From Rhizobium leguminosarum bv. trifolii WSM1325 (lineage in GTDB: Bacteria > Pseudomonadota > Alphaproteobacteria > Rhizobiales > Rhizobiaceae), in NCBI GenBank assembly GCA_000023185.1, contig CP001622.1:62001-126000 (forward strand): a DNA stretch of 64,000 nucleotides, written 5' to 3'. Every line of letters starts with the position of its first letter. Position 1 is the stretch's first letter. Positions 44,742 through 59,339 of the stretch are shown here, piece after piece. A program made the translations under genes and the position numbers. The notes below the pieces were generated by a model. That model searched no databases and was not told the origin of the DNA. It saw only the letters and a list, made by a program, of their open reading frames with translations.

Positions 44742-44889
44742 AGCCCCTCACCCTCACCCTCTCCCCGTAAAAACGGGGCGAGGGGACGTGCCCTGCGATG
44801 GTGCGATCGGTGGTGGGGAACGGAGAGGGTGCGGCATATCCCCTTCGCCCCGCGAGCGGGGAGAAGGTGCCGGCAGGCGGATGAGGGGC
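44742..44889. repeat. RIME-like palindromic repeat, copy 2 (complete)
   Basis: Begins GCCCCTCACCCTCACCCTCT and contains CCCCGTAAAAACGGGG and CCCCGCGAGCGGGG hairpins, ending GGTGCCGGCAGGCGGATGAG. It is the most complete copy in the window and matches the split copy around the insertion sequence at 49911-51284. Confidence 0.85.
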
Positions 44890-45065
44890 GAGTCTATCGG
44901 CGATCCGAGAGGGCCACAATTTTCGGCATAATTTTGACCATCTGGTCAAACATGCTGCAAAATGAGGCGGATACCTGTTATTTTGAGGGCAAGCTTTGCA
45001 TCTAGCGCATTGCTGCATTGCGGTATTTTCGCTATTCCGAATCAAAAGAATTGGCTATTACTATC

Positions 45066-45184
45066 TTCGTAAGCAGCGCACTCCTCCTCCCAGTGCTCTT
45101 ACATCGGACTGACAACACTCCTCCTCCCAGTTGTCAGTCAGGATCAAGAGCCCGGCGCACCTCCTCCCGCGTCGGGCTTTTTTC
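45066..45184 (+). ncRNA. alpha-r14 family small RNA (NfeR1/Smr14C type)
   Basis: Three consecutive hairpins each expose the anti-Shine-Dalgarno sequence CCTCCTCCC in the loop. The loops lie at about 45082-45091, 45119-45128 and 45160-45168. The stems are AGCGCACT/AGTGCT, ACTGACAAC/GTTGTCAGT and AGCCCGGCGC/GCGTCGGGCT. The last hairpin is followed by TTTTTT and is the rho-independent terminator. This is the defining architecture of the alpha-r14 sRNAs of Rhizobiales, which pair with ribosome-binding sites of transporter mRNAs. The 5' end is estimated; the 3' end is the T-run at 45178-45183. Confidence 0.9.
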
Positions 45185-58091: not shown

Positions 58092-58174
58092 GGCCGCTCC
58101 TCCCGATCGTTGGCCTATGCCCGAATTCGATGGAGCATGCCACATCGAATTAATAATTCAATTGGATTTATTTA

Positions 58175-58204: not shown

Positions 58205-58319
58205 TGCCGTCGTCAAGGGCACGGGACCGCTGGGAGGCATTAGCGATCCACGGCGAAGTGTCATATCTTAAGCTTCCGGCCCCGCAGGGGCGGCGCCGGC
58301 AAACTCTGGGAGGAGTTCC

Positions 58320-59339
58320 ATGAAGAAATCTGTTCTCGCTTTCGGCGCGCTCGCGCTTGGTGTCACCTTTTCCGCTCCTGTTATGGCGGCTGACGTTGCT
58401 GCCTGCCTCATCACCAAGACCGACACCAACCCCTTCTTCGTCAAGATGAAGGAAGGTGCGACGGCCAAGGCCAAGGAACTCGGCGTCTCGCTGAAGTCCT
58501 ATGCCGGCAAGGTCGACGGTGACAGCGAAAGCCAGGTGGCCGCGATCGAAAGCTGCATTGCCGACGGCGCAAAGGGCATCCTGATTGCTGCTTCCGACAC
58601 CAAGGGCATCGTGTCTTCGGTCAAGAAGGCCCGTGATGCCGGCCTGCTGGTCATCGCGCTCGACACGCCGCTCGAGCCGGCCGATGCCGCCGACGCCACC
58701 TTCGCCACCGACAACCTGCTCGCCGGCAAGCTGATCGGCCAGTGGGCCAAAGAAACGATGGGCGACAAGGCCAAGGATGCCAAGGTCGGCTTCCTCGACC
58801 TGACGCCGTCACAGCCGACGGTCGACGTTCTGCGCGACCAGGGCTTCATGATGGGCTTCGGCATCGATCCGAAGGACCCGAACAAGATCGGCGACGAGGA
58901 CGATGCTCGTATCGTCGGTCATGACGTGACCAACGGCAATGAAGAAGGCGGCCGCAAGGCCATGGAAAACCTTCTGCAGAAGGATCCGAGCATCAACGTC
59001 ATCCACACGATTAACGAGCCGGCCGCTGTCGGCGCCTATCAGGCGCTGAAGGCCGTCGGCATGGAAAAGAACGTGCTGATCGTCTCGGTCGACGGCGGTT
59101 GCCCGGGCGTGAAGTCGGTCAAGGAAGGCGTCATCGGCGCTACCTCGCAGCAATATCCGCTGATGATGGCAGCCCTTGGCGTCGAAGCGATCAAGAAGTT
59201 CGCCGACAGCGGTGAAAAGCCGAAGCCGACCGAAGGCAAGTCCTTCTACGACACCGGCGTCTCGCTCGTCACCGACAAGCCGGTTTCCGGCGTCAAGTCG
59301 ATCGACACCAAGGAAGGCACGGACAAGTGCTGGGGCTGA
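58320..59339 (+). CDS. frcB: fructose ABC transporter substrate-binding protein FrcB
   Basis: 339 residues. The signal peptide (about 1-23, [12 protein letters not shown]) predicts periplasmic location. The mature part is a sugar-binding type-4 (ribose/galactose-like) periplasmic fold, with [20 protein letters not shown] at its start and [19 protein letters not shown] in the hinge region. It closely matches the S. meliloti FrcB as I recall it, the high-affinity fructose receptor. GGGAGGAG precedes the start. A hairpin lies 22 bases after the stop, before frcC, which would favour high expression of the binding protein. Confidence 0.93.

Follow-up and report, generated by a model that had tools for sequence, protein, structure and literature searches.

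The locus and its small RNA gene

Between a gene for an aldo/keto reductase and a downstream gene for a DUF900 hydrolase, the analysed window (64,000 nucleotides of the Rhizobium leguminosarum bv. trifolii WSM1325 genome, contig CP001622.1) carries a small RNA gene of the Rfam family ar14. The match to RF02344 reaches 115.3 bits against a gathering score of 58.8 (E 1.2e-20), and a default Rfam scan suffices to detect it. The same family name had been given in a first-pass annotation of this DNA and was correct, which illustrates that a reading of the sequence without tools can name a non-coding RNA family correctly. That annotation placed the transcript at 45066..45184; its end agrees with the Rfam match, while the match begins 3 bases earlier, at 45063. 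The window RNA is an ordinary, apparently intact member of a published family, and its kind is already known: RNAs of three hairpins with CCUCCUCCC loops appear in a 2011 description, and work on NfeR1 was published up to 2023. The gene and its structural parts lie as follows.

45063..45184, plus strand: ar14 (RF02344) small RNA gene, by covariance model, whole model (1-123 of 123)
45069..45102, plus strand: hairpin 1, stem 45069-45079 with 45093-45102, loop holding CTCCTCCTCCC
45107..45139, plus strand: hairpin 2, 10-pair stem, loop holding CTCCTCCTCCC
45146..45181, plus strand: hairpin 3, predicted intrinsic terminator, CCTCCTCCC loop and T run at the 3' end
45083..45091, plus strand: anti-Shine-Dalgarno motif 1, CCTCCTCCC, by sequence search
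45120..45128, plus strand: anti-Shine-Dalgarno motif 2, CCTCCTCCC, by sequence search
45160..45168, plus strand: anti-Shine-Dalgarno motif 3, CCTCCTCCC, by sequence search

All window copies of CCTCCTCCC lie on the plus strand and inside 86 bases; three were found against 0.62 expected, and three or more appeared in 3 of 100 shuffles. The RNA strand folds at -49.4 kcal/mol, compared with a mean of -25.4 (sd 3.05) for shuffled sequences, none of 200 being as good, which corresponds to a z of -7.9 for the three-hairpin fold against dinucleotide shuffles. Every one of the three hairpins bears CCUCCUCCC unpaired in its loop, as expected of an ar14 member, and the repeat shared by loops 1 and 2 extends beyond CCTCCTCCC to CTCCTCCTCCC. 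The threefold motif and the strength of the fold thus bear out the earlier description of three successive hairpins with the same nine-base anti-Shine-Dalgarno loop. The accompanying remark that the loops are identical and the stems different applies to the window copy, but some paralogues in the same genome deviate: the third loop reads CCTCCCCC in two of them (L002 and L003), and in another (L008) one of the three motifs is perfect. Hairpin 3, previously proposed as a rho-independent terminator, can probably act as one because its stem is GC-rich and a T run stands behind it. It is absent from the output of a simple terminator scan, probably because that scan permits loops of 3-8 and the loop of hairpin 3 is 10.

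Conservation of place and structure

Relatives of the locus were fetched with the DUF900 hydrolase encoded downstream as the query, and the best 80 of 517 loci were compared. The triple motif stands upstream of the hydrolase in 55 of these 80, in records labelled Rhizobium or Rhizobiales. The 25 loci in which it is missing comprise all those labelled Agrobacterium, Sinorhizobium and Metarhizobium, together with one Hyphomicrobiales MAG, one Rhizobiales record and five Rhizobium-labelled loci (L064, L086, L092, L101, L104); an Rfam scan of all 25 returned ar14 above the cut-off in none. In five other loci (L042, L046, L047, L048, L049) the distance between RNA and hydrolase is about 500 bases greater than in most, as if there were an insertion between them. 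L042 is the copy of Rhizobium johnstonii 3841 and likewise precedes this hydrolase gene.

An alignment of 39 rows, made up of 38 distinct orthologous sequences and the window, was used to examine the stems. Measured on the fold of the window RNA, 99.6% of cells are paired; sliding the partner lowers this to 29.5-43.4%. Changes on both sides of a pair that leave it intact, whose absence had been named beforehand as one of two results that would refute the RNA reading, occur in all three stems, in 9 of 33 pairs against 6.1 in shuffles, and the covariation score was reached by 0 of 500 shuffles, in which relatedness is not preserved. Further pair types are no more numerous than in the shuffles (20 against 20.1, with 440 of 500 shuffles as high). 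Individually, hairpin 1 (10 pairs) has 99.0% of cells paired and two-sided changes in 2 pairs, hairpin 2 (10 pairs) 100% and changes in 4, and hairpin 3 (13 pairs) 99.8% and changes in 3. Since the motif itself served to select the 55 loci, the unchanging loop octamer is in part a product of that selection. A degenerate repeat was also considered and dropped, given that the stems covary in this alignment.

Promoter and upstream DNA

In S. meliloti, the NfeR1 promoter binds LsrB at a box of the TGCA-N6-GCAT type (PMC10746234). A box of this form and a possible core promoter precede the window RNA.

44997..45010, plus strand: LsrB-like box TGCA-N6-GCAT (wider form TGC-N7-GCA-N-TGCTGCA), by sequence
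45031..45060, plus strand: proposed -35/-10, GCTATTC-N17-CTATTA, by inference, with spacing equal to that in L285 and L288

The candidate -10, CTATTA at 45055-45060, lies 58 nt from the LsrB-like box, and transcription would start near 45067. The same 58 nt separate box and -10 in L285 and L288 (S. fredii and S. glycinis), where the box stands at -71 and the core promoter reads CCTAYAC-N17-CTATCT; judged from their promoters, these two loci are probably the counterparts of NfeR1. Across 56 orthologous upstreams the strict TGCA-N6-GCAT form is present in 16 and the wider form in 53, at -66/-67, compared with 0 of 11200 shuffles that preserve single-base content only; because the wider form was written after the alignment had been seen, the figure of 53 out of 56 is descriptive and no independent test.

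Compared with NfeR1, the core promoter of the window RNA is weaker. The published core promoter CTTAGAC-N17-CTATAT has no good match before the window RNA (the best free match carries 5 mismatches in 13), and GCTATTC-N17-CTATTA, at the expected spacing, is a weak match to it. The proposed -35/-10 is also missing from the output of a sigma-70 scan, whose single listed sigma-70-like site falls at 44934-44963. The NtrC site TGC-N11-GCA, which in NfeR1 lies near -116 to -100, has no exact match upstream of the window RNA and is present only with one mismatch, at -114 from the assumed start, this being one of at least 4 equally good matches.

Two further elements were observed in this intergenic DNA. 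A perfect inverted repeat, TTTGACC-ATCT-GGTCAAA at 44933-44950, lies upstream of the promoter box and is possibly an operator, and a palindromic intergenic repeat, with GGGGAGAAGGTGCCGGCAGGCGGATGAGGGG at 44858, occupies approximately 44745-44895, in the interval from the aldo/keto reductase gene to the RNA.

Family copies and related systems

The genome holds eight ar14 copies above the cut-off on five of its six contigs: C1 carries three, C2 two, and C3, C5 and C6 a single copy apiece, while C4 has none. Four of them (L004, L005, L006 and L007, on contigs C6, C3, C5 and C2) have a fourth motif about 38 nt upstream; in these copies the promoter element GCAT-N-GCTGC is moved 37-38 bases upstream, about one hairpin length. 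At the level of the genus, ar14 matches were found in 40 of 40 genomes (own included), and a family-wide draw gave a match in 57 of 61 genomes, above the cut-off in 56. In other genera of the family, ar14 copies were also seen in tandem, in runs of three and four (G078:C10:168153-168608 and G066:C45:28034-28528).

A below-cut-off match in the own genome (L010, 31.8 bits) was also recorded. At L010:1582-1725 on the minus strand (C1 near 1696579-1697156) lies a 48-aa DUF1127 gene in a CIN1-like locus, whose stop codon runs directly into a single anti-Shine-Dalgarno hairpin with terminator and which adjoins the ar14 copy L002.

Among characterized RNAs, NfeR1 of S. meliloti (Smr14C2, SmelC397) belongs to the same Rfam family as the window RNA and likewise has three hairpins with CCUCCUCCC loops. 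It is under LsrB and NtrC control and silences ntrB, and single S. meliloti targets were named in 2023, as stated in the cited parts of that work (PMC10746234). The two RNAs appear to differ in genomic place, the hydrolase neighbour being without the RNA in three of three Sinorhizobium loci (L103, L108 and L116, none of which is S. meliloti). The window RNA is an ar14 member for which orthology with NfeR1 is a candidate relation.

The loop motif, the three- and four-hairpin forms and copies on several replicons had all been printed in 2011, when R. leguminosarum copies were already named (PMC3927594). Among the SmelA075/SmelA099 RNA family models of that year, the window copy corresponds to the form with three hairpins and L004-L007 to the form with four. 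These models have the loop motif and the multi-replicon copies in common with the own genome; within the cited parts of the 2011 description, nothing of substance sets these models apart from the copies found here. The additions made by the present analysis are modest, consisting of the count of eight copies, the four with a fourth hairpin, the two candidate target sites in the window and the excess of solute-binding proteins behind such sites, and no long-standing question is opened.

The CcsR or cuckoo RNAs of the CIN1 locus in Rhodobacter sphaeroides, whose loops carry this anti-Shine-Dalgarno motif, represent a related motif RNA beside a DUF1127 gene, whereas the window copy has no DUF1127 neighbour and is preceded by its own promoter box. 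In Rhodobacter, the CcsR RNAs arise by cleavage of the ccaF1 transcript (PMC10253847). AbcR1 and AbcR2 form another family than ar14; their anti-Shine-Dalgarno motifs are similar, not identical, to those of NfeR1, their regulon consists mostly of transport and metabolic mRNAs, the AbcR1 promoter has an LsrB site, and NfeR1 is Hfq-independent while AbcR1/2 are not, all according to the cited parts of one source (PMC10746234).

Proposed mode of action

With a probability of roughly 90%, we read the locus as the gene of a trans-acting ar14 RNA that silences mRNAs with GGGAGGAG sites from an LsrB-type promoter and by means of three redundant loops. The RNA belongs to the family, its stems are kept, its promoter box stands at an NfeR1-like spacing, and the matching ribosome sites are rich in binding proteins. 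By analogy with S. meliloti NfeR1, which silences transporter mRNAs and ntrB, the window RNA would be transcribed, regulated and active in silencing. A trans-acting RNA of about 120 nt would be made from the LsrB-type stress or nutrient promoter, and the transcript would be ended by its own third hairpin. Each of the three loops would offer CUCCUCCC for pairing with mRNAs whose ribosome-binding site is GGGAGGAG, the loop complement; such pairing would keep ribosomes off these mRNAs, and the three loops would be redundant. The targets would largely be solute-binding proteins of uptake systems, possibly including, 13 kb downstream, the paired genes of a sugar transporter and a ROK regulator. The locus also serves as a comparative case: this ar14 copy has held its position within Rhizobium, its stems covary, an LsrB-like box precedes it, and two candidate targets lie close by as a pair.

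It is unlikely, yet deserving of consideration, that the window RNA is a conserved but poorly expressed paralogue and that the work is done by one of the other seven copies. Any given ar14 copy may be nearly silent, because in S. meliloti, according to the cited part of a review (PMC7143759), Northern blots reliably showed just one copy out of six, and both the eight copies above the cut-off and the weak core promoter would fit such an explanation. The two-sided changes in the stems and the upstream box, kept at a fixed distance in 53 of 56 cases, nevertheless speak for use over long times, and the copy itself is present in 55 of the best 80 of 517 hydrolase loci. Under the preferred reading of an active silencing RNA, the phenotype of a single copy may still be small, because the eight genome copies have the motif in common.

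The class of matching ribosome sites

Across the genome, the pattern GGGAGGAG-N3-9-ATG occurs at 60 sites, compared with 10 for the pattern read backwards. Among the matches listed, solute-binding proteins account for 13 of 46 ORFs behind GGGAGGAG and 0 of 45 behind AAGGAGG (p 9e-5), and for 5 of 22 against 0 of 45 when the chromosome only is considered (p 0.003); among chromosomal ORFs of at least 250 aa the figures are 5 of 18 and 0 of 13 (p 0.058). The 46 ORFs are the 60 sites minus 13 with ORFs below 60 aa and minus L200, which is the same gene as L199, and the 45 controls derive from 70 of 195 AAGGAGG sites, all on contig C1, once 23 sites with short ORFs and 2 duplicate proteins had been taken out. 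Individual scans covered the 13 binding proteins, all 13 controls of at least 250 aa and one shorter control, the other 31 shorter controls being judged among the matches listed. The excess of binding proteins appears as a trend that fits the published NfeR1 targets, confounded by length and replicon and weaker when these are matched.

These figures also bear on the idea that the RNA is a decoy for ribosome sites at large, or a stress brake, and lacks a defined set of targets; its loops would then mimic the 16S rRNA tail and bind any purine-rich leader. The motif is a plain anti-Shine-Dalgarno repeat, as many as 60 start sites in the genome match it, and regulation by ribosome-site blocking in stress adaptation was presumed in 2011 (PMC3927594, cited in part). 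We regard such a decoy as quite improbable, given that by base count the loops are more complementary to GGGAGGAG than to AAGGAGG, that binding proteins stand behind GGGAGGAG sites and none behind AAGGAGG among the matches listed (a difference that weakens on matching), and that the cited parts of the S. meliloti work name single targets (PMC10746234). A further alternative is that the element has no part in regulation and is a mobile palindromic repeat or a stacked terminator. In its favour are the multiple copies in each genome, spread here over five of six contigs, the tandem copies in other genera of the family and the palindromic repeat just upstream. It is nevertheless very improbable in view of the same gene neighbour in 55 of 80 loci, the covarying stems and the RNA's own promoter box.

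Candidate targets in the window

If the RNA silences GGGAGGAG-site mRNAs as proposed, candidate targets lie in the window itself, in which GGGAGGAG octamers are not above chance overall (5 against 2.86 expected, with 12 of 100 shuffles as many). Three of the five are the RNA itself, and two are the ribosome sites of a divergent gene pair.

58308..58315, plus strand: candidate target site GGGAGGAG, ribosome site of the sugar-binding-protein gene 58320-59339
58097..58104, minus strand: candidate target site GGGAGGAG, ribosome site of the divergent ROK-family regulator, start codon 58091-58089

The product of the 58320 gene matches Pfam Peripla_BP_4 and reaches no NCBIfam cut-off. The first-pass annotation had called this gene frcB and suggested its ribosome site as a possible target; the suggestion gains some support from the GGGAGGAG site, from the best predicted duplex and from the conservation of GGGAGGA there, but the gene name has no NCBIfam support. 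The duplex of loops 1 and 2 with the 58320 site is calculated at -20.7 kcal/mol, with the next best start region at -15.0, in energies that ignore the folding of either partner. It is the best of 22 start regions, hand-picked from the ORF list on the plus strand only, and none of 500 random stretches was as good.

In at least 29 of 40 genomes the transporter gene is preceded, on its own strand and at a distance of 3.2 to 28.5 kb, by an ar14 copy; in the remaining 11 none is so placed among the matches listed, one genome (G037) having a copy nearby on the opposite strand. This linkage of RNA and transporter may be plain common descent. We put forward only tentatively, and with more doubt than confidence, that the RNA controls the nearby sugar-uptake module at both heads, that is, at the binding-protein gene and at the divergent ROK-type regulator, because both heads carry a full-match GGGAGGAG and ar14 copy and transporter are neighbours in much of the genus. 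If true, two-headed control would tie small RNA, regulator and transporter into one linked circuit, of a kind not met in the cited parts of the ar14/NfeR1 literature.

The target sites were also compared across the best-scoring 30 of the 40 genomes searched. A divergent ORF, assigned to the ROK type in the window only, has GGGAGGAG at its start in 22 of the 30 genomes, a feature missing from the other 8. The 58320-type gene has kept the full GGGAGGAG in 19 of 30 (own included) and GGGAGGA in all 30.
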